Shown here piece after piece: positions 13,898 through 43,234 of a stretch of 43,234 nt of DNA. Every line of letters begins with the position of its first letter. The stretch's first letter is position 1. The stretch is from Gammaproteobacteria bacterium (GTDB taxonomy: Bacteria; Pseudomonadota; Gammaproteobacteria; Steroidobacterales; Steroidobacteraceae), in NCBI GenBank assembly GCA_028870705.1, contig JAGWPD010000222.1, positions 1 to 43,234 on the forward strand, written 5' to 3'. The position numbers and the translations under genes were made by a program. The notes under the pieces were generated by a model. It was not told the DNA's origin. It saw nothing but the letters and a program-made list of their open reading frames with translations, and did not search any database.

Positions 13898-15337
13898 ATG
13901 GCCGAGGGAACCCCAGCTGCGCAGTCCGGAACGAACTACAACGACCGGGTGGTGCGCCAGTTTGCGCTGATGACGATCGTCTGGGGCGTGGTCGGCATGA
14001 CCGTGGGGTTGCTGCTGGCTGCGCAACTCATCTGGCCGGCGCTGAACTTCGACACGCCGTGGCTGACCTACAGCCGGTTGCGCCCGCTCCACACCAACGC
14101 GGTGATCTTCGCCTTCGGCGGTTCGGCGCTGTTCGCGACCTCTTATTACATCGTACAGCGCACCTGTCATGTGCGGCTGGTCTCGGACCGGCTCGCCGCC
14201 TTCACGTTCTGGGGCTGGCAGCTGGTCATCGTGCTCGCAGCAGTCACGCTGCCGCTCGGCATCACCACCAGCAAGGAATATGCAGAACTCGAGTGGCCAA
14301 TCGATATCCTGATCGCCATCGTGTGGGTGGCGTACGCCTTCGTGTTCATCGGCACGCTGGCGATCCGTCGCGTCAGGCACATCTACGTCGCCAACTGGTT
14401 CTTCGCGGCCTTCATCATCACGGTCGCGGTGCTGCACATCGTCAACAGCGCCGAGATCCCGGTGACGCTGACCAAGTCGTATCCGGTCTACGCGGGCACG
14501 GTCGATGCGATGGTGGAGTGGTGGTACGGCCACAATGCGGTGGGCTTCTTCCTGACCGCCGGGTTCCTCGGGATGATGTACTACTTCGTGCCCAAGCAGG
14601 CCGGCCGGCCGGTGTATTCGTACCGGCTGTCGGTGGTGCACTTCTGGTCGCTGATCTCGATATATATGTGGGCTGGCCCGCACCACCTGCACTACACGAC
14701 GCTGCCCGACTGGGCGCAGTCGCTCGGCATGGTGTTCAGCCTGATGCTGCTCGCCCCATCGTGGGGCGGGATGATCAACGGGATCATGACGCTCTCGGGA
14801 GCGTGGCATAAGCTGCGCACCGATCCGATCCTCAAGTTCCTGATCGTCTCGCTGTCCTTCTACGGCATGTCGACCTTCGAAGGGCCGATGATGTCGATCA
14901 AGACCGTCAACGCGCTCTCGCATTACACCGACTGGACCATCGGCCACGTGCATTCCGGCGCGCTCGGCTGGGTGGCGATGGTCACGATCGGCTGCCTGTA
15001 CGCGCTGATCCCGCGGCTGTACGGCCGCACCAGCATGTGGAGCACGCGCCTGATCGACTGGCACTTCTGGACCACCACCATCGGCATCGTGCTTTACATC
15101 GCCGCGATGTGGATCGCCGGCGTTATGCAGGGCCTGATGTGGCGCTCGACCAATCCGGACGGCACGCTGACCTACACCTTCGTCGAGGCGCTGCAGGCGA
15201 CCCACCCGTTCTACATCGTGCGGCTGTGCGGCGGCGCGCTGGTGCTCGCCGGCATGTTCCTGATGATCTACAACGTGCGCCGCACGCTGCAGGAGCGCGG
15301 CGCGCCGATCGACCAGCCCGTCCTGGCGCCGGCCTGA
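13898..15337 (+). CDS. ccoN: Cytochrome cbb3 oxidase subunit I
   Basis: Heme-copper oxidase motifs [55 protein letters not shown]. Confidence 0.96.
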
Positions 15338-18811: not shown

Positions 18812-19312
18812 ATGCGCAAGCCCAGAAATCCCGTGCTCGTGCTGGTGATCGCGTTGCCGCTGCTCGCGGTGGCCGGCAGCTTCGTGTCGCTGGCGCTCGC
18901 GCTCGCGCGCGGGGACACCGAACTGCCAAAAAATTACCACTGGGAAGGCGGCGCGTTTGATCGCGACCAGGAACTCGAGGCGCGCGCGGCGCGGCTGGGC
19001 ATCGGCGCGACGCTCGCCTTCGATCCCGCCGCCGGGCAGTGCGTGCTGGCGTTGCATGGCGCTGCCGCTGCGGGGCCCGCGACACTGCGGCTCGGGCTCG
19101 TGCACCCGACCGAGGCCGCGCTCGATCGCCAGCTGCTGTTGCGGCTGGAAGGCGGACGCTACCGCGCAGCGTGCAGCGCGCTGCCGCCCGCGCACTGGTG
19201 GCTCGAGCTCGCCGATGAGCAGCGCAACTGGTTGTTGCGCGGCCGGCTGCACGGGGACCTGCACCTGCCGGTACGCATCGGCGCCGCCGCCGCGGCGGCG
19301 GAGGCGCGTTGA
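18812..19312 (+). CDS. ccoH: FixH/CcoH family protein
   Basis: N-terminal TM, NYHWEGGAFDRDQE-like motif, position between ccoG and ccoI. Confidence 0.8.
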   Translation: MRKPRNPVLVLVIALPLLAVAGSFVSLALALARGDTELPKNYHWEGGAFDRDQELEARAARLGIGATLAFDPAAGQCVLALHGAAAAGPATLRLGLVHPTEAALDRQLLLRLEGGRYRAACSALPPAHWWLELADEQRNWLLRGRLHGDLHLPVRIGAAAAAAEAR

Positions 19313-21531
19313 GCCAGGTCGCCGCACACCTGCACTGGCACGGCGCGCGCGGGCTCGAACAGGCCGAGTTCTTCGCCGAGGGCATGCATTGCGCCAATTG
19401 CGCGCGCTCGATCCGCGCGGGCGTGGGCGCGCTGCCGGGCGTACGACAGGTCGACGTCAACCTGACCACCGCGCGTGTCAGCGTCAGCTGGGACCCGGAT
19501 CGCGCCCGCCTCGGCACGGTGCTCGACGCGGTCGAGGACCTCGGCTTCCACGCCGTGCCGCTCAACGGTACGGCCGGCAGCGAAGCCCGGCACGCCGCAC
19601 GGCGCGGGATGCAGAAGCGCATCGGCCTGGCCGGACTGGCGGCCATGCAGATGTCGATGTACACGGTCGGACTCTACGCGGGAGCCTGGAGCGGCATCGA
19701 CCCGTGGATCGAGCAGCTTCTGCGCGTCACGGCGATGCTGATCGCGGTGCCGGTGCTGCTCTACTCGGGCGCGCCGTTCCTGGCCGGCGCCTGGCACGAT
19801 CTGCGCCGCCGCTCGCTCGGGATGGACGTGCCCGTGGCCGCGGCGCTGCTGCTGGCATTCATCGCCAGCGTGCTCGACACCTGGCGCAACAGCGGGCAGG
19901 TCTACTTCGATTCCGTGGCGATGTTCGTCTTCTTCCTGCTGGTGGGCCGCTACGTCGAGATGAACGTGCGCCGCAGCAGCCTGAACGCCGGCGAAGCGCT
20001 GGTACGGAGCCTGCCCGCCACCGTCACGCGGCTGCGTGATGATGGCCGGAGCGAGCGTGTGCCGCTGCAGCAACTCAATGCCGGCGACCGGCTGGTCGTG
20101 CCGCTCGGCGCCGTGATACCGGTCGACAGCACGCTCGAGCGCGGCAGCACGCTGGTCGATGAGTCGCTGGTCACCGGCGAGGCGCTGCCGGTAACGCGCG
20201 CCGCAGGCGCGCGCCTGCCCGGCGGAGCGATCAACATGGGCGCGGCCTGCACGGTACGCGCCAGCGCCGATGCGCGCCATTCGACGCTCGCATCGATGGC
20301 GGCGCTGATCGAGCGCGCGCAGGCTGAGCGCCCGCCGCAGGCGCAAGCGGCCGACCGCGCCGCCGCGCACTTCGTGTTCTGGATCGTGCTGCTGGCTGCG
20401 GCCACCGCAGTGTTCTGGTACTGGTTCGATCCGGCGCGCGCCTTCCCCGCCACGCTCGCGGTGCTGGTGGTCACCTGCCCCTGCGCGCTGTCGCTCGCGA
20501 CGCCGGCGGCGCTGGCCGCAGCGACCACGCGGCTGGCGCGCCGTGGCGTCCTGGTCACCCGCGCCGATGCGCTCGAGCGGCTGGCGGCGATCGACACGGT
20601 GGTGCTGGACAAGACCGGCACGCTCACCAATGCACGCATGCAACTGGCCGACGTCCGCTGCGTCGGCGCGTTGCCGCGGTCCGCAGCGCTGGCGCTGGCC
20701 GCAAGCCTCGAGCAGCGCTCGGCCCATCCGCTGGCCGCGGCGTTCATTGGCGCGACCACCGACAGAGTGGCGATAACCGACTTGCGCGAACACGCGGGCC
20801 ACGGCATCGAAGGCATCGTCGACGGCGCGACCTGGCGCATCGGCAAGTCCGACTGGGTCGCCCAGTTGCGCGCGCGCACCGATCCTGCCGCAGCCAGGCC
20901 TGCGGCCCCGGCTGCGCTGACGAACGCCGACCCGGACGCAGACGATTGCATCTGGCTGGGTTCGGCGGCCGGCCATGCCGCAGCGTTCAGCGTGGCCGAT
21001 ACGCTGCGCCCCGACGCGCGCGCCGCGGTTGCGCGGCTCCGCTCGCTGGGGCTGGAGGTGCGCATCGCCAGCGGCGACCGTCGCGCAACGATCGCCAGGG
21101 TCGCCGCCGAGCTCGGCATTGCGGCAGCCGAAGGACGCATGGATCCGCAGGCCAAACTCGGGCTGATCCGGCGCCTGCAGGCACAGGGACGGCATGTCCT
21201 GATGGTGGGTGACGGCATCAACGACGGCCCCGTGCTCGCCGCTGCGCACGCTTCCTGCGCGATGGGTGGCGGCGCCGCGCTGGCCCACGCCGCGGCCGAT
21301 CTGCTGCTGATGAATGAATCGCTGGTCGGGCTGGCGGGAGCGGTGCAGACCGCGCGCGGTGCAACCGGGCTGGTGCGTGCCAACCTGCGCTGGGCATTGG
21401 GCTACAACCTGTGCGCCGTGCCGCTGGCGGCCGCCGGCCTTGTCTCGCCCTGGCTGGCGGCGCTCGGCATGTCCGCCAGTTCACTGTACGTGGTGGAGCG
21501 GGCCAGGCGCTTTGCGAGGACCGACGCATGA
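19309..21531 (+). CDS. ccoI: Cation (copper)-transporting P-type ATPase CcoI/FixI (TTG start)
   Basis: HMA motif GMHCANCARSI, CPCALS, DKTGTLT, GDGINDGPVLAAAHASCAMGGG. Confidence 0.93.
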   Translation: MSQVAAHLHWHGARGLEQAEFFAEGMHCANCARSIRAGVGALPGVRQVDVNLTTARVSVSWDPDRARLGTVLDAVEDLGFHAVPLNGTAGSEARHAARRGMQKRIGLAGLAAMQMSMYTVGLYAGAWSGIDPWIEQLLRVTAMLIAVPVLLYSGAPFLAGAWHDLRRRSLGMDVPVAAALLLAFIASVLDTWRNSGQVYFDSVAMFVFFLLVGRYVEMNVRRSSLNAGEALVRSLPATVTRLRDDGRSERVPLQQLNAGDRLVVPLGAVIPVDSTLERGSTLVDESLVTGEALPVTRAAGARLPGGAINMGAACTVRASADARHSTLASMAALIERAQAERPPQAQAADRAAAHFVFWIVLLAAATAVFWYWFDPARAFPATLAVLVVTCPCALSLATPAALAAATTRLARRGVLVTRADALERLAAIDTVVLDKTGTLTNARMQLADVRCVGALPRSAALALAASLEQRSAHPLAAAFIGATTDRVAITDLREHAGHGIEGIVDGATWRIGKSDWVAQLRARTDPAAARPAAPAALTNADPDADDCIWLGSAAGHAAAFSVADTLRPDARAAVARLRSLGLEVRIASGDRRATIARVAAELGIAAAEGRMDPQAKLGLIRRLQAQGRHVLMVGDGINDGPVLAAAHASCAMGGGAALAHAAADLLLMNESLVGLAGAVQTARGATGLVRANLRWALGYNLCAVPLAAAGLVSPWLAALGMSASSLYVVERARRFARTDA

Positions 21532-23866: not shown

Positions 23867-24286
23867 GTGCCAATACCGAACACCGAGGGCGGGCCCGCTG
23901 CCGCGGAGGCCGCCGGCGTGGCGCCGGGCGTCCCCGCGGTGCTGTGCGTGCAGCAGCGCGACAGTGATGAGATCCGCCGCGTGCTGGCGGCGCTGCACGC
24001 GCCGCTCCGTGAATGCGCCGATGGCCGCTCGGCCATAGCGGCGGCCGGCAGTGGCCCGCTGAGCTGCGCGGTCGTGCCACTGCAGATGCCCGACATGAAC
24101 GCCAGCGCGCTGATCGGCGCGCTGCGCGAGGCCGCGCCCGGGCTGGCGGTATTCGTGGTGGTCGACAACCCGGCCGTCAGCGAGGCAGTCGCGGTCATGC
24201 GCTCCGGCGCGCATGCGGTGATCGACAGTCGCATCCTCAGCACCGGCCTGATGGTGCACCTCGCGCCCCTGCTGCGGGCCCGCTGA
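23867..24286 (+). CDS. Degenerate (pseudo-)receiver domain protein (GTG start)
   Basis: Receiver-like layout AVLCVQQRD...CAVVPLQMPDMN...VFVVVDN...VIDSRI, with acidic pair, phospho-Asp and Lys positions substituted. Confidence 0.6.
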   Translation: MPIPNTEGGPAAAEAAGVAPGVPAVLCVQQRDSDEIRRVLAALHAPLRECADGRSAIAAAGSGPLSCAVVPLQMPDMNASALIGALREAAPGLAVFVVVDNPAVSEAVAVMRSGAHAVIDSRILSTGLMVHLAPLLRAR

Positions 24287-24351
24287 GGCGCGAGCGCGCC
24301 GTGGCGTTGTTTGCTAGCCTAGCGACCGATGCCGCCAATCCGCCGGTTCCG

Positions 24352-25380
24352 ATGAGCAATCCGCACGACAGCTGGTACCACGAGCGCGAATCCGCCTGGC
24401 TCTATCGGGTGGTGGCGGAGGCCGATGCCGATCAGCGCCACCAGCAGCTGTTCCGCGCGCTCTCGCAGGCTGCCGAGGAACAGGCAGCGCACTGGGCCAG
24501 GCTCGCGCGGCCCGGCGAATTCCGCCCACGGATGCGCGCGCGCCTGGTCGCCAGGCTGGTGCGCTGGCTGGGCCCGCGCGCGCTCAGGCCGGTGCTCGCC
24601 GCGATGAAACTGCGCGGCCTGTCGGTGTACAGCGGCGCGGCCGCCGTCGATGGCCACCTGATGCCCGTAACCGTACAGGATGTCGGCCAGCGCCATCGCA
24701 GCGTGACGGGCGGCAACAACCTGCGCGCCGCGGTGTTCGGCGTGAACGACGGCCTGGTCTCGAACCTGAGCCTGATACTCGGCGTGGCCGGCGCCGGCGC
24801 CAGCGCTCAGGTGATCCTCACCAGCGGGCTGGCGGGGCTGCTCGCCGGCTCGCTCTCGATGGCCTCGGGTGAATACGTATCGGTGCGTTCGCAACGCGAG
24901 ATGTACGAGTACCAGATCGGCCTCGAGCGCGACGAACTGGCCGAGTACCCGGCCGAGGAAGCAGAGGAACTGGCGCTGATCTACCAGGCCCGCGGCGTGG
25001 AACTGGAGCAGGCGCGTTCGATCGCCGCGCGGCTGATGGCCAATCCCGACCACGCGCTCAACACGCTCGCGCGCGAGGAACTCGGCCTCAATCCGGACGA
25101 CCTGGCCTCGCCCTGGGCGGCGGCGGCATTCTCGTTCTGTGCGTTCGGTTCGGGCGCGCTGCTGCCGCTCGTTCCCTACCTGACGCACATTGCCAGCGGC
25201 TCCGCGCTCTACTGGTCGGCGGGCACGACCATGGCGGCATTGTTCGGCGTGGGGATGGCGCTCAGTCTCTTCAATGGCCGCAACTCGCTCCACGGTGGCG
25301 CGCGCATGCTGCTGATCGGCGCGGCGGCGGCGGGCTGCACCTGGGCAGTCGGCCATTTCCTCGGCGCGGCGCTCGGCTAA
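24352..25380 (+). CDS. VIT1/CCC1-type transporter with N-terminal ferritin-like region
   Basis: NNLRAAVFGVNDGLVSNLSLILGVAGA and LLAGSLSMASGEYVSVRSQREM are typical of VIT1; N-terminus has helical HERESAWLYRVVAEAD...LFRALSQAAEEQAAHW. Confidence 0.85.
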   Translation: MSNPHDSWYHERESAWLYRVVAEADADQRHQQLFRALSQAAEEQAAHWARLARPGEFRPRMRARLVARLVRWLGPRALRPVLAAMKLRGLSVYSGAAAVDGHLMPVTVQDVGQRHRSVTGGNNLRAAVFGVNDGLVSNLSLILGVAGAGASAQVILTSGLAGLLAGSLSMASGEYVSVRSQREMYEYQIGLERDELAEYPAEEAEELALIYQARGVELEQARSIAARLMANPDHALNTLAREELGLNPDDLASPWAAAAFSFCAFGSGALLPLVPYLTHIASGSALYWSAGTTMAALFGVGMALSLFNGRNSLHGGARMLLIGAAAAGCTWAVGHFLGAALG

Positions 25381-37925: not shown

Positions 37926-38003
37926 TTGACCTTAATCCGCCCGCCTGTCGGCTGCTGGCGACAGGCACTCATGAGGCGCCGCATGGTGGAAAATGGGCGG
38001 GAC

Positions 38004-39257
38004 ATGCGCCTCCCCGCAAGACCCGTTCCGAACCTGGCCGCCGCGCTGGGCGCGCTTGCCGTGCTGGCGGGCTGCGGTGGCGACCTCGGCAGCGGCGGTG
38101 CGACCTCGGTGGCTGGCAGCAACGTCACGGCGATCACCGTCGATGGCGGACCCGCCGGAGCAATCAACGGCGTCAACTCGCCGTATGTGTCGGTTACGGT
38201 CTGCCAGCCGGGTTCGACCAGCAACTGCCAGGTGATCGATCACGTGCTGCTCGATACCGGCTCGACCGGCCTCCGGCTGCTGGCGAGCGTGGCCAACAAG
38301 TCGCTCGCGCTCCCGCAGCAAATGGACACTGCCGGCCAGCCGCTGTTCGAGTGCCTGCAATTCGCTGACCGCAGCTATGCCTGGGGCACGGTGCGGCTGG
38401 CTGACGTGCAGATCGCCGATGGCAAGGCGCTGAACCTGCCCGTGCAGCTGATCGGGGATGCCGCCGCCCCCACTGCGCCAAGCGAGTGCTCGCTGGCACT
38501 GACCGCCAAGCCGCTGCCGGCCGCGGACACGGTCGCGGCGCTCGATGCCAACGGCATCCTCGGCATCGGCGTGTTCCGCGAGGATTGCGGCGCCGGCTGC
38601 ACCCTGCCGCCCGCGGCGGGCCAGATCTACCAGTACTACACCTGCACCACCAACGCCTGCAACGGCGAGACATTGGCTACCTCGTTGCAGGTGCAGAACC
38701 CCGTGTACCACTTCGCGACGAACAACAACGGCGTGGTGATCGAACTGCCGGCCATCGGACCGGCCGGTGCGTTCGGTGCGCGCGGCTCGCTGGTGCTGGG
38801 CATCAATACCCAGAGCAACAATGGGCTCGGCACTGCCAAGGTACTGCCGGTCGATGCGCTGGGCTTCGTGACCACGGTGTACAACGGCCAGACGCTGCTG
38901 CACAGCTACATCGACTCGGCCTCCAAGGGGCTGTATTTCGACGACGCATACCCGGTCTGCAATCCGGCGTCAGTCGCGGGGGGCCTCTATTGTCCGGGCG
39001 CGGCCGCGCCCGTGTCGCGGTCAGCCACCATCCAGGGCACGGATGGCAGCAACAAGCAGGTCGACTTCACGATCGGTGACGGCCTCGCGCTGCTGCAGGC
39101 CCAGCCGACCTACAACGCGTTCGGCAATTTCGGCGGGCCGCTCGGCGATGCGACCGCATTCGACTGGGGGCTGCCGTTCTTCTACGGCCGCAGCGTGTTC
39201 GTGGCCATCGAAGGCCAGTCGACCACCGGCGCCACCGGCCCCTACTTCGCGTTCTAG
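38004..39257 (+). CDS. DUF3443-like lipoprotein with retropepsin-like DTGS motif
   Basis: Lipobox-like LAVLAGCGGD; NSPYVSVTVCQPGSTSNCQVIDHVLLDTGSTGLRLL. Confidence 0.75.
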   Translation: MRLPARPVPNLAAALGALAVLAGCGGDLGSGGATSVAGSNVTAITVDGGPAGAINGVNSPYVSVTVCQPGSTSNCQVIDHVLLDTGSTGLRLLASVANKSLALPQQMDTAGQPLFECLQFADRSYAWGTVRLADVQIADGKALNLPVQLIGDAAAPTAPSECSLALTAKPLPAADTVAALDANGILGIGVFREDCGAGCTLPPAAGQIYQYYTCTTNACNGETLATSLQVQNPVYHFATNNNGVVIELPAIGPAGAFGARGSLVLGINTQSNNGLGTAKVLPVDALGFVTTVYNGQTLLHSYIDSASKGLYFDDAYPVCNPASVAGGLYCPGAAAPVSRSATIQGTDGSNKQVDFTIGDGLALLQAQPTYNAFGNFGGPLGDATAFDWGLPFFYGRSVFVAIEGQSTTGATGPYFAF

Positions 39258-39880
39258 CGTTCCCCGTCCATGAAGCGCACGTAGCGATCGAGTGCGCGGC
39301 GCTGGTCATCCCACAATTCGTAAGTCACCGTGTCCTCGCCGAGCTGGGTCCGCACCGCAAGGCTCCGTGCACCCGCGATGAAGCGCAGCGTGTCCAGGTC
39401 GGTCGGGAACACCAGCGGCTTGACGTCCTGGCCGGGCGGCGCGTGCACCGGCCGCGCGATGCCCAGATCGGTCGGTGATTTGCCGGCCGCATCGAGCCGG
39501 ATGCGCCGGTCGTCGGCAATCAGCACGATCGAGTCGGCGAGCGCCGAAGCCGGCGCGTAGCGCGGATCGAGCGTCGACCAGACATAGGCGACCAGCACGT
39601 ACTCGAGCTTGCCGCCACGATCTACCGAGGCGGCCGACAGGGTGACGTAGTCGCGCAGGTTCGCGGCCCGTTCGCTCCGGTCGCGCGCGAATACCAGCGG
39701 CGCATCGACCAGGTCGACCGTGGCGCCGGTCTGCTCGTCCAGGTACTCCTCGGGCTGCGGCGGCGGCGAACGACCGACAACACCCCCGCTGGCCAGGAGC
39801 GCGGCGAAACACACTGCGCACAGCGCGGCGGTACGTGGCGTCGCCAGCTGCCGATGCCGTAAACGGGCTCGCGGGATCAT
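39254..39880 (-). CDS. Secreted/periplasmic protein of unknown function
   Basis: N-terminal signal-like region; ATGA overlap with the upstream beta-barrel gene; full-length ORF. Confidence 0.65.
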   Translation of the reverse strand: MIPRARLRHRQLATPRTAALCAVCFAALLASGGVVGRSPPPQPEEYLDEQTGATVDLVDAPLVFARDRSERAANLRDYVTLSAASVDRGGKLEYVLVAYVWSTLDPRYAPASALADSIVLIADDRRIRLDAAGKSPTDLGIARPVHAPPGQDVKPLVFPTDLDTLRFIAGARSLAVRTQLGEDTVTYELWDDQRRALDRYVRFMDGER

Positions 39881-42333
39881 CAGAATCCGATGCGGTAAGC
39901 GAGGCTCACATAATAGCGCTTTGTATTCTGCGTCTGCAGCGTGGAGTCGCGCTTGCCGAGCTGCCCACCGGCTTCGAACTGCAGCAGCCGCCGGCCGCGC
40001 TGGTAGTCGAGCAGCACCGAGGGCAGGAACGACAATTCGGTGCTGCCATCGCTGGCGAGTTGCCGGTGATCGATGGTCAGGCGGGGACCGAGCCGCCAGT
40101 CGCCGCCGACCGGCACGCGCGTGGTGGCCGCCACCGAGGCGATCTTGCCGGTCTCGGTATTGGCATAGGCCACGCTCAGCACGTTGAAATCCCCAGTGCG
40201 CCAGATGTTCGAGCCGTAGACCTGCGCCTGGTACGACAGCGTCAGGCCGGTGCCCGGCTGCGCCGGCACGCCGCCCGAAGCGGGCGTGGCGCCGATCCTG
40301 GCGGCATCGACGGTCGCCGAGAACTGGTAGCGCAGGCCCAGCGGCCGCGTCGCGGTCAGGCTGTAGTTGGAGGACACCGCGGTACGATCGCGGGCGAGCT
40401 GCAGTATCTCGTTGTCCGTGAACACCGTCTGCAGGTCGGCGATGCTGGTGGCATTCTGGCCGATCAGCGCATTGCGCAGCGAGATCACCGGCGCGTTGCG
40501 CTTTTCCGCATCGAAGCTCAGGCTCCAGCGCGCCGGCAGCTGCATCGTACCGAGCAGCGCGGCCGCGTTCAGCGAATGGAAGTACACGTCATAGTCGTAC
40601 AGCATCGTCATTGAGGTACGCGGCAGCAGCAGCCGCGCCTCGAAACCGGTGCCGCGGCGGTCGGTCAGCCCGTCGAAGCGCTGCTGCGCAAAGAACACGC
40701 TCGCGTCCCAGTGGGCGCCCGGCGGCGCGTACGGGATCGCTACCGCCCAGAAACTGCGCTGCCGCACGATGCCGCCGTTGGTCCGCTCGACCGGGTAGCC
40801 CGCGGCGACATTGATACCGAGCGAGCGCAGCATCTGCCAGGAGGCGAACGCGCCATCGAACGTGCCCAGCACGCCGCCACTGTTCTGCGACTGCCGGCCA
40901 ACGCGCGCCAGCAGGCCCCACTGGCGGTCGGCGAACTCGAACGAGGCCACGCTGATGCGCTTGGTGGAATCGTTGGCACTGGTCGCGGAGCTGCCGGCGA
41001 AATTCTTGGCATAACCCGCGCTGATGCGCGCGGTCATGTCGAAGCGCTCGCCGCGGCGCTTGGCGAGCACGTCAACGTCGTTGTAGAGCGAGTTCTGCTT
41101 CTGGGTCTGGCTGTTGTTGGGCACGACGGTGCCGCCCGCATTGGCGCTGTTGCTGACCGTCGTGCCGTCATAACGGTACATCTGCGCCACGCCGCCATTC
41201 ACGTGCCAGCCGGTGGCCGCGGCCGTGCCGCCGCCGGTGCCGGTGCGCGCACTGGTCGAGGCTGCCCGCAGCGTCGCCAGGCGCCGCGCAATGCGCTCAG
41301 CGGCCTCGCCGGCCGGATAGCGGCGCAGGTACTCCTCGTATTCCGCCTTGGCCTGCGCCAGCTGCCCGGAACGTTCGCGCGCCAGTCCCAGCAGCTCCTG
41401 CATCGCCGCGCGCTGCGGAAATTCCGGCTGGCGCTGCAGCTTGGTGAGCGTGGCGATCGCGGCCGGGTAGTTGCGCGCGCTCATCTGGCTGCGCGCGCCG
41501 GCCACCAGCTTGGCGAGCGTGGCCGGGTCGAGCGCGGCATCGGCGCCGATGCGCTCGACCGGTGGCAGCACTTCGCCGGTGCCGCCGCCCGCCGCCGACG
41601 TGATCTCGTCACCGATCGCGAGCCAGGCGCGCGGATAATCGGCCAGCGCCGCATTCAGCACGCGCTCGGCGTCCGCGCGTTTGTCGAACGGCCCCGCGCG
41701 CAGGCGATACCAGGTTTCCTCGTCCACCACCGCCTGGCTGACGTAAACCGGTGTCTTCAACCGGCCGCGGGCAAGCTGGAGCGCGGCGGGCGGGAAATCC
41801 TTCGGTTGCGATTCGAGGTTGACCGCGAAGCTGGCCGCCGGGCCTGACGGCTCGTTGATCATGAGCTTGCCGCGCCCGCGGGCCCGGTCGATCAGCCGCA
41901 CGCGCAGCCCGCGCGGATCGACACCCTGCGCCAGCACGTAGCGCTCGCTCTTGCGGAAATCGAATACCAGCGTGACCTGGCCGGGCACGTCGGACTCGAC
42001 CCGCGCGGCGTCGATGATGTGCGCGCCGCCGGATACCGGCGGCAGCTCGCCGAGGATCTGCGTGCCCGGCGCGAGCTGGCAATCGCCCAGCGGCTGCAGC
42101 TGGATGCGCAATTCCTTCGACTCGGACGCCGGCTGGTGGGTGAGGTAGCGGAGCGAGCAGGTGAACTGCACGACCACGTCGGCCTGGTCGTCGTGGTCCT
42201 CGACCTCGATGACGTCGACGAAGCGGCCGGGACCCGCGCCGGTGATCTGCGCCAGCGCCGGGCCCGCACCCAGCACGGCCAGCAACGCGAACCCGGCAGC
42301 GGCGACGGCGCCGCTAGTGCTTGAACGCGGCAT
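39880..42333 (-). CDS. SPOR/TPR protein with C-terminal outer-membrane beta-barrel
   Basis: Signal peptide MPRSSTSGAVAAAGFALLAVLGAGPALA; SPOR-like TWYRLRAGPFDKRADAERVLNAAL; TPR-like repeat; long amphipathic beta region ending YYVSLAYRIGF. Confidence 0.75.
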   Translation of the reverse strand: MPRSSTSGAVAAAGFALLAVLGAGPALAQITGAGPGRFVDVIEVEDHDDQADVVVQFTCSLRYLTHQPASESKELRIQLQPLGDCQLAPGTQILGELPPVSGGAHIIDAARVESDVPGQVTLVFDFRKSERYVLAQGVDPRGLRVRLIDRARGRGKLMINEPSGPAASFAVNLESQPKDFPPAALQLARGRLKTPVYVSQAVVDEETWYRLRAGPFDKRADAERVLNAALADYPRAWLAIGDEITSAAGGGTGEVLPPVERIGADAALDPATLAKLVAGARSQMSARNYPAAIATLTKLQRQPEFPQRAAMQELLGLARERSGQLAQAKAEYEEYLRRYPAGEAAERIARRLATLRAASTSARTGTGGGTAAATGWHVNGGVAQMYRYDGTTVSNSANAGGTVVPNNSQTQKQNSLYNDVDVLAKRRGERFDMTARISAGYAKNFAGSSATSANDSTKRISVASFEFADRQWGLLARVGRQSQNSGGVLGTFDGAFASWQMLRSLGINVAAGYPVERTNGGIVRQRSFWAVAIPYAPPGAHWDASVFFAQQRFDGLTDRRGTGFEARLLLPRTSMTMLYDYDVYFHSLNAAALLGTMQLPARWSLSFDAEKRNAPVISLRNALIGQNATSIADLQTVFTDNEILQLARDRTAVSSNYSLTATRPLGLRYQFSATVDAARIGATPASGGVPAQPGTGLTLSYQAQVYGSNIWRTGDFNVLSVAYANTETGKIASVAATTRVPVGGDWRLGPRLTIDHRQLASDGSTELSFLPSVLLDYQRGRRLLQFEAGGQLGKRDSTLQTQNTKRYYVSLAYRIGF

Positions 42334-43234
42334 CCGCCACCCGGTGGTACGGTCCGGGCATCGGCTTGGCCACCGTGCCCAGCGTCGCGTCGCTGTACAC
42401 GTGACAGGCGCCCGAGCAGTCACGCAGTTCGCTTGCGGTGTACTTCAGGCCACCCTGCGTCTTGGGATGCAGATCCGGCCGGAAGTCCTTCGCGTGGCAG
42501 CCGCCGCAGCTGCCGGCATCGGCTGGCGAGGCCCACGGGATCTGGTCGGTGTTCGTGGTGTGGCAGGCCGTACAGGCAAGCGCCGCGCGATGTTCACCCG
42601 GATAGCTCGCCGAGGTGTGGGCGAAATGCAGCACTGACCAGTCCGGATAGCTGTGGCAGGTGGCGCAGCCGCGAGCAGTCGACATGTGCGTCGGCGTTAC
42701 GCCGATGGCGATGTTGTTGTCGTGGCAGCTGGCGCAGGGCGCAGTCAGCGTGGTGTGGTCGAGCTTCGCGGGCTTCCAGCCGAGCGTACCGTGGCAGGTG
42801 TCGCACTGCGCGCTGGTCACCACGTGATTCGCCGGCAAGCCGGTCGCGTGGATCGAATCATGGCAGCTGATGCAGGTGTGCGGGGCCACGCCGATGTGGT
42901 CGAAGCGCGCCGGCGACCAGGCGTTGGTCGTGTGGCAGGTCTCGCAGCTGTCACTGCCGGCGATGTGGTTGCGGCCCTTGCCGGTGGCGGCCACGCCGTT
43001 GTGGCAGCTGACGCAGCTGCCGCGCACCTGCATGTGATCGACGTGCGTGACCGGCAGCCAGGCGGCGGTCATATGGCAGCTCTCGCAGCGATCGGTGGTG
43101 GCGATGTGGTTCGGGCTCATGCCGATGCCGCTGGCCGGGCCGTGGCAGGTGACACAGGCCGTGCCGGCAACGCGCCGGTGGCTGAAGCCGACCGCCCCGC
43201 CGCCGACCGAGCCGGACGCGCTGAGCGCCGGGGC
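42314..43234 (-). CDS. Multiheme c-type cytochrome, 5'-truncated by the window edge
   Basis: At least ten CXXCH motifs plus one CX3CH (CSGACH); reading frame is open from the ORF-track ATG at 43120 to the window end, including an extra CVTCH at 43142-43156. Confidence 0.9.
   Translation of the reverse strand, partial: APALSASGSVGGGAVGFSHRRVAGTACVTCHGPASGIGMSPNHIATTDRCESCHMTAAWLPVTHVDHMQVRGSCVSCHNGVAATGKGRNHIAGSDSCETCHTTNAWSPARFDHIGVAPHTCISCHDSIHATGLPANHVVTSAQCDTCHGTLGWKPAKLDHTTLTAPCASCHDNNIAIGVTPTHMSTARGCATCHSYPDWSVLHFAHTSASYPGEHRAALACTACHTTNTDQIPWASPADAGSCGGCHAKDFRPDLHPKTQGGLKYTASELRDCSGACHVYSDATLGTVAKPMPGPYHRVADAAFKH

Follow-up and report, generated by a model that had tools for sequence, protein, structure and literature searches.

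A putative PCC3-type porin–cytochrome operon in the Steroidobacteraceae and a possible end-to-end joint between its two multiheme cytochromes

Introduction

An operon found in a gammaproteobacterium of the family Steroidobacteraceae very probably encodes a PCC3-type porin–cytochrome conduit, i.e., an electron wire that spans the cell envelope, and electrons probably pass through it between the interior and the exterior of this soil or groundwater bacterium. The system was described in 2017 as PCC3, a putative porin–cytochrome conduit (He et al. 2017, PMC5566968), and has been little studied; the operon presented here is a further member. Carriers on record in parts of PMC5566968 and PMC10734462 are Gallionellaceae, Leptothrix and tubeworm symbionts, and the main texts of the open-access PMC literature yielded no report of PCC3 in Steroidobacteraceae.

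The DNA analyzed is a stretch of 43,234 nucleotides, referred to as the window, which is contig C174 of the assembly (JAGWPD010000222.1 of GCA_028870705.1) and has a G+C content of 68%. An initial annotation, made from its sequence alone, had singled out three minus-strand genes overlapping end to start, encoding a multiheme cytochrome, an outer-membrane barrel protein and a secreted protein, and had proposed an electron conduit. All three genes are present where they had been placed.

Results

Organization of the operon

The right end of the window falls inside the cytochrome gene. The part within the window encodes 10 CXXCH motifs and one CX3CH (CSGACH), in agreement with the at least 11 heme sites counted in the initial annotation. 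The last 34 nt of the window are the same as bases 3-36 of another contig of the assembly (G000:C164, L005; 6477 bp), with the overlap in frame, and the join is confirmed because this gene is uninterrupted in a close relative (G002, L038/L064; 1391 aa with 42 CXXCH). The extension to the right, which had been recommended, thus supplies the rest of the cytochrome as well as neighboring genes for a 21-heme cytochrome, an inner-membrane protein (IMP) and a CcmI-like protein. In the direction of transcription the joined locus encodes the CcmI/CycH-like protein, the IMP, the 21-heme cytochrome, the 44-heme cytochrome, the barrel protein and the secreted protein (Table 1), where genes either overlap or are separated by at most 16 nt.

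Table 1. Features of the operon and its flank; positions are those of the window unless L005 is given
Feature	Position	Strand	Remark
CcmI/CycH-like gene, incomplete	L005 5731-6477		
Cytochrome-b-like diheme inner-membrane protein (IMP), 282 aa	L005 4879-5727		
21-heme periplasmic cytochrome, 521 aa, 21 CXXCH	L005 3297-4862		
Outer multiheme cytochrome, 1390 aa, 44 candidate heme sites	L005 3288 to window 42314		
Outer cytochrome gene, 3' part (306 codons)	42314..43234	-	Runs off the right end of the window
Compact C-terminal module of outer cytochrome, residues 1111-1390	42317..43156	-	
SPOR-TPR-barrel protein (putative PCC3 porin), 817 aa	39880..42333	-	
Signal peptide of barrel protein, MPRSSTSG...GPALAQ	42247..42333	-	Sequence; aligned starts in relatives
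N-terminal beta domain of barrel protein, residues 36-150	41884..42228	-	
SPOR domain of barrel protein, residues 169-240	41614..41829	-	Pfam PF05036; AlphaFold2 model; 2lfv match
TPR helices of barrel protein, residues 270-359	41257..41526	-	
Predicted 22-strand C-terminal beta-barrel, residues 376-816	39886..41208	-	AlphaFold2 model, Foldseek
Secreted protein, 208 aa	39254..39880	-	
DUF3443 gene, convergent flank	37926..39257	+	

The barrel gene, which most likely starts at ATG 42333, overlaps the cytochrome gene (stop at 42314) by 20 nt, and its stop codon (39882-39880) shares 1 nt with the ATG (39880) of the secreted protein. An upstream GTG at 42423 was dropped as start codon, as ATG 42333 directly precedes the conserved signal peptide. 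The DUF3443 gene on the flank is often kept beside the operon in the genus of the window; it is probably not part of it.

Assignment to PCC3

In passages of He et al. (PMC5566968) the IMP of PCC3 is characterized by a length of ~300 aa, two WX3HX13H motifs, an SGXXG motif and five transmembrane helices, while the median heme numbers are 34 for the outer cytochrome (range to 85) and 21 for the periplasmic one. The IMP encoded here harbors WFKAH...H and WHFAH...H, each with HX13H, and SGLVG; the two WX3HX13H motifs and SGXXG also recur in IMPs of the named-genome loci. The operon further shares with PCC3 the 21-heme periplasmic cytochrome, the larger outer cytochrome, the beta-barrel, i.e., the same gene set, and an outer cytochrome of low complexity that is rich in T/S/A/G (here A 13%, T 12%, G 9%, S 8%). 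Its heme numbers of 21 and 44 lie close to the published medians. It differs in having 44 candidate sites in the outer cytochrome, as compared to the median of 34, and in the looser middle repeats and the 90-residue gap of that protein. Relatives of tubeworm symbionts named in parts of PMC5566968 are found among the barrel matches (L123, L124, L126) and are included in the best 80 matches of the single named-genome scan, among which the founding Sideroxydans/Leptothrix proteins do not appear.

The order of IMP, 21-heme cytochrome and 44-heme cytochrome upstream of the barrel is that of PCC3 and supports the putative electron-conduit function that the initial annotation had inferred. The same annotation had not recognized a barrel with built-in SPOR and TPR segments from MtrAB-type systems. 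Neither Pfam nor NCBIfam assigns the protein to MtrB; its architecture is typical of PCC3, a system that the annotation had not recognized.

MtrA and MtrC are decaheme cytochromes, and MtrB is a 26-stranded barrel that is not known to carry SPOR or TPR. The MtrCAB, MtoAB and PioAB systems resemble the present operon in that a periplasmic multiheme cytochrome, a barrel and, in Mtr, an outer cytochrome are arranged across the outer membrane. Membership of MtrCAB/MtoAB is nevertheless ruled out, because the partners, with 21 and 44 sites, are not decaheme; the barrel also differs in its 22 predicted strands and its SPOR and TPR segments. On the cytochrome, the TIGR03508 model (DmsE/MtrA-type) stays far short of its cut-off; TIGR03509 (MtrB/PioB) gave no match in this genome, nor did it in the control genomes of the same search. 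The hexadecaheme cytochrome HmcA gives a partial profile match to the 21-heme cytochrome, but its 50 bits fall well short of the 400 required for the family, and the repeat number is another. The Methylobacter bioanode conduit (PMC13322032), also considered as a PCC3, was ruled out as being of the MtrAB type.

Conservation of the gene set

Homologues of the barrel were drawn from 98 relatives, the 80 best named-genome loci and 370 class-level genomes, sets that overlap so that some genomes are counted twice; 125 loci were annotated. An adjacent cytochrome with at least 8 hemes was found at 105 of the 107 barrel loci with more than 1 kb upstream, and an IMP at 74 of the 80 with more than 6 kb. 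At one of the two exceptions (L105) the cytochrome lies 1.76 kb upstream of the barrel. The arrangement is found repeatedly throughout Steroidobacteraceae, as well as in further Gamma- and Alphaproteobacteria, and is therefore far beyond chance.

The initial annotation had called for a search for a conserved neighborhood, and had held that its proposal would fail if barrel homologues consistently occurred without cytochromes, for example with polysaccharide export genes. The proposal withstands this check, as the cytochrome adjoins the barrel at nearly every locus with room, as given above, and no homologue was seen with export genes, where the annotation of neighboring genes in the relatives is partial.

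L060 (8758-10602), the other exception, contains a barrel-TPR homologue with neither the N-terminal part nor a cytochrome, after a large, unrelated autotransporter-like gene, and is possibly a misassembly or a degraded or decoupled copy. L127 (7601-12034; Desulfuromonadales) combines a barrel with a 29-heme cytochrome of strict 23-residue pitch in what appears to be a divergent version; neither the periplasmic-type repeat nor the IMP was found at this locus.

The barrel protein

The initial annotation had divided the barrel protein into a beta-rich N-terminus, a SPOR-like domain, TPR-like helices and a barrel of roughly 400 residues. An AlphaFold2 model built with 26 homologues (mean pLDDT 77.6, pTM 0.60; barrel region mostly >80) contains all of these at the residues listed in Table 1, the barrel being slightly longer. 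The SPOR unit has the topology beta-alpha-beta-beta-alpha-beta, a helical insert (residues 619-649) lies within the 22-strand region, and the protein ends in a C-terminal F. In Pfam, SPOR scores above the cut-off (26 bits vs 21; E 1e-5), whereas TPR_16 (E 1e-5) remains below the curated one; TPR helices are nonetheless predicted, and the segment is kept in every homologue. Solved structures matched by sequence are restricted to TPR (CpoB) and, weakly, SPOR (DamX, 2lfv, E 0.056), and none was matched for either cytochrome. The N-terminal beta domain contains conserved Cys59 and Cys85, which probably form a disulfide.

Across the 125 annotated loci, TPR is found in all, the N-terminal domain is fused in 107 and SPOR is found in 102. 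The most conserved stretch of the family is that of the TPR helices, ELLGLARERxGQLAHAKAEYEEYLRRYP. The N-terminal beta domain occurs as a separate gene at 17 of the 125 loci; such small genes lie upstream of the barrel at, e.g., L172, L173, L176 and L191, and in some cases a fused copy is present as well.

Structure prediction of the barrel alone thus returned 22 strands, and the model makes a closed barrel likely, where closure is a prediction in view of the pTM and of the low TM-scores for the Foldseek matches. PCC3 porins were predicted with up to 42 transmembrane strands (parts of PMC5566968); relative to that number, the model would place the strands of the N-terminal beta domain and of SPOR outside the barrel.

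The Foldseek matches (FimD/PapC ushers, AlgE and OprD-like barrels) have good E-values and bear on a different role, in which the barrel is mainly an export pore that secretes the outer cytochrome, and the latter then acts as a free or filamentous extracellular wire with the barrel outside the electron path. The closest of these matches are the usher pores FimD/PapC and AlgE, which exports alginate; exporters of the PgaA/BcsC type likewise combine TPR with a barrel; and the outer cytochrome reaches extreme lengths that vary widely. The low TM-scores for every solved barrel, however, make the usher ranking weak. Genes for glycan synthesis, chaperones or pilins were not seen in the joined locus, and the start of the outer cytochrome is in register with the periplasmic cytochrome (see below), which argues for a standing junction. 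We consider such an export role improbable. A polysaccharide exporter is ruled out by the neighborhood as far as it was annotated, where cytochromes and IMP are adjacent at nearly all loci and Pfam identifies no such genes in the joined locus. The PgaA/BcsC and AlgK/AlgE systems do have in common with this protein a periplasmic TPR that is joined to, or works with, an outer-membrane barrel, but their exporter barrels have 16-18 strands, as opposed to 22 predicted strands, a SPOR domain and cytochromes in place of glycan synthesis genes here.

Repeat architecture of the two cytochromes

The periplasmic cytochrome consists of consecutive triheme units, in which the CXXCH motifs are spaced by 17, 18 and 33. 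Exactly 21 CXXCH were counted in 55 of the 68 distinct periplasmic cytochromes and 18, 24 or 27 in nine; the others have 11, 13, 22 and 23 (one each), where the one with 13 (L124) adjoins an 8-heme frame and resembles a broken 21. Counting in triheme units agrees independently with the 21, 24 and 27 hemes given for Gallionellaceae PCC3 in parts of PMC10734462.

The outer cytochrome, with 42 CXXCH, one CX3CH and one CX4CH, is built differently. Its ends are fixed, with a first spacing of 16 and, in most sequences, last CXXCH spacings of 31-32 and 22, and its pitch is 23/24 residues in most lineages. In the lineages with this pitch the number of CXXCH is odd in 41 of 43 distinct sequences (range 9 to 69), as expected from growth by diheme units plus an extra CX3-4CH site; because the sequences are related, these counts are descriptive rather than independent events. 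In the genus of the window the middle part is looser (27-43 for the most part), and a gap of 90 residues precedes the last ten CXXCH, which belong to the C-terminal module (spacing 23-24, then 31 and 22, plus the CX3CH), an ending common to most of the family. The outer cytochrome is thus a diheme-repeat wire of very variable length, whereas the periplasmic one nearly always has 21 or 24 hemes. An incomplete outer cytochrome at L185 (1-7737), a single frame of 2578 aa, contains 90 candidate heme sites, 83 of them CXXCH, a number comparable to or above the 85 hemes named as the largest number in 2017 (parts of PMC5566968).

Register of the two cytochromes

A profile search with the periplasmic repeat found one copy at the N-terminus of the outer cytochrome, over its first two hemes, in 69 of 71 distinct sequences. 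This match scores 40-52 bits (E about 1e-12 to 1e-16), as compared to <17 bits (~2e-5 or weaker) for other stretches, and a plain protein search of the organism's own genome returned the same single extra match (E 9e-9). In the periplasmic repeat the third CXXCH is followed by 14-15 residues, FDH, 18-19 residues and the next CXXCH. In 55 of 64 cases the periplasmic cytochrome ends 16-17 residues past the point where its last CXXCH begins, i.e., where FDH is due, while the mature outer cytochrome, with cleavage sites set by a simple rule, begins 0-11 residues before an FDH located 18 residues ahead of its first CXXCH. This register implies that the two cytochromes together would continue one repeat and, at the level of sequence, suggests an end-to-end heme joint at the outer membrane.

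The same pattern would be obtained by fission at a repeat boundary, as both cytochromes are repeat arrays, and the N-terminal copy may then be a relic of a single long cytochrome gene that was divided long ago, with no role in docking. This explanation, which is compatible with a conduit, is a serious but less favored one, at roughly one chance in three. Against it, a single N-terminal copy is kept in nearly all outer cytochromes of Alpha- and Gammaproteobacteria, although the rest of the protein is of another repeat type and of varied length; the first heme of the periplasmic cytochrome matches the repeat poorly (8-16 bits vs 40-52); and a fused single-gene form was not found among the loci examined.

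Accessory components

The secreted protein belongs to a family present at 66 loci. It had been described as a secreted unknown, which holds in that it is secreted and has no relative in Pfam, NCBIfam or PDB, while the family is to be corrected to one that mostly bears a lipobox (32 of 55 distinct members by a strict pattern), the Cys of which is missing in the window's protein and in most of its genus. The predicted structure (pLDDT 88.5) is a mixed beta fold; its best Foldseek match, the IalB-like 3dtd, was not accepted as a relative (E 0.05, TM 0.3). At 33 of the 68 loci with room for it, the gene immediately upstream of the IMP is CcmI-like, and a second Ig_CycH copy is found elsewhere in the genome. 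The downstream family, mostly lipoproteins, and the CcmI-like gene are recurrent extra components of PCC3.

The SPOR, TPR and N-terminal domains, the downstream lipoprotein family, the CcmI-like gene and the repeat register are not mentioned in the portions of PMC5566968 and PMC10734462 covered here. Main texts of the open-access PMC literature gave no report of the repeat architecture, the junction, SPOR/TPR or the extra components, parts of which may be published.

Discussion

Proposed mechanism

In the conduit proposed here, the quinone pool would exchange electrons with the diheme cytochrome-b-like IMP, which would pass them to the 21-heme cytochrome, whose seven triheme units, once loaded with heme, would span the periplasm. 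At the outer-membrane barrel, or within it, the C-terminus of this cytochrome would meet the 44-heme cytochrome at the N-terminal repeat of the latter, with a geometry that we infer from the register. The 44-heme wire would lead outward to an extracellular donor or acceptor, and electrons could flow in either direction. With the SPOR and TPR segments in the periplasm, SPOR would probably grip peptidoglycan while TPR holds the cytochrome junction in the assembled complex, and the conduit would thereby be fixed to the wall. The CcmI-like protein may help to mature apocytochromes with so many hemes. The small protein encoded downstream, secreted or a lipoprotein, may be an accessory at the outer membrane.

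A more specific model views PCC3 as one modular heme array distributed over two proteins, i.e., a fixed triheme periplasmic ruler and a diheme outer wire of free length with a same-register joint at the outer membrane, where the SPOR-TPR-barrel protein anchors the joint to peptidoglycan and the N-terminal FDH histidine possibly acts across it. We regard the chances for and against this model as evenly balanced.

Physiology and direction of electron transfer

On Fe(II) both PCC3 clusters of Sideroxydans ES-1 are down, and one of them has its listed outer cytochrome at zero in every proteome column; for these reasons oxidation of Fe(II) by PCC3 is not supported in that organism. The lack of induction by Fe(II), as well as the very many hemes in a single operon and the capacitor role raised in parts of PMC10734462, would also fit a cluster that is an electron store, i.e., a periplasmic or cell-surface buffer (capacitor) or a detoxification sink, instead of a respiratory conduit. 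The conserved diheme b-type IMP and the outer-membrane barrel would then be superfluous, and we consider such a store very unlikely.

As regards the conduit, a family search of this genome (93% complete) gave no match for RuBisCO, which makes RuBisCO-based autotrophic iron oxidation unlikely. The genome contains three COX1-type oxidase genes, one of them in the window. These observations are compatible with oxygen respiration together with optional uptake or release of electrons, both being possible.

The COX1-family (heme-copper oxidase) gene of the window (13898-15337, + strand) lies within 25 kb of the operon and a heavy-metal P-type ATPase with an HMA domain is encoded at 19309-21531; a terminal oxidase and copper-supply cluster in the window is likely. 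The window also encodes a VIT-family membrane protein (iron/manganese transporter type; 455 aa, 24013-25377, + strand), the long N-terminus of which has no Pfam match, and an IS630-like transposase with DDE_3 and helix-turn-helix domains (360-1430, + strand).

Implications

PCC3 is widespread in Proteobacteria, where its function and architecture are putative, and the locus described here places it in Steroidobacteraceae. The analysis adds evidence from which an end-to-end joining of heme proteins and a barrel tethered to the cell wall may be deduced. If true, the junction explains by what means two such large cytochromes connect at their ends and defines their polarity, with the periplasmic N-terminus at the inner membrane and the outer N-terminus at the barrel. 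A periplasmic wire in multiples of three hemes combined with an unconstrained outer wire is what would be expected of an element measured against the periplasm, and a SPOR domain that anchors an electron conduit to the wall would, if true, have no known counterpart in MtrCAB.
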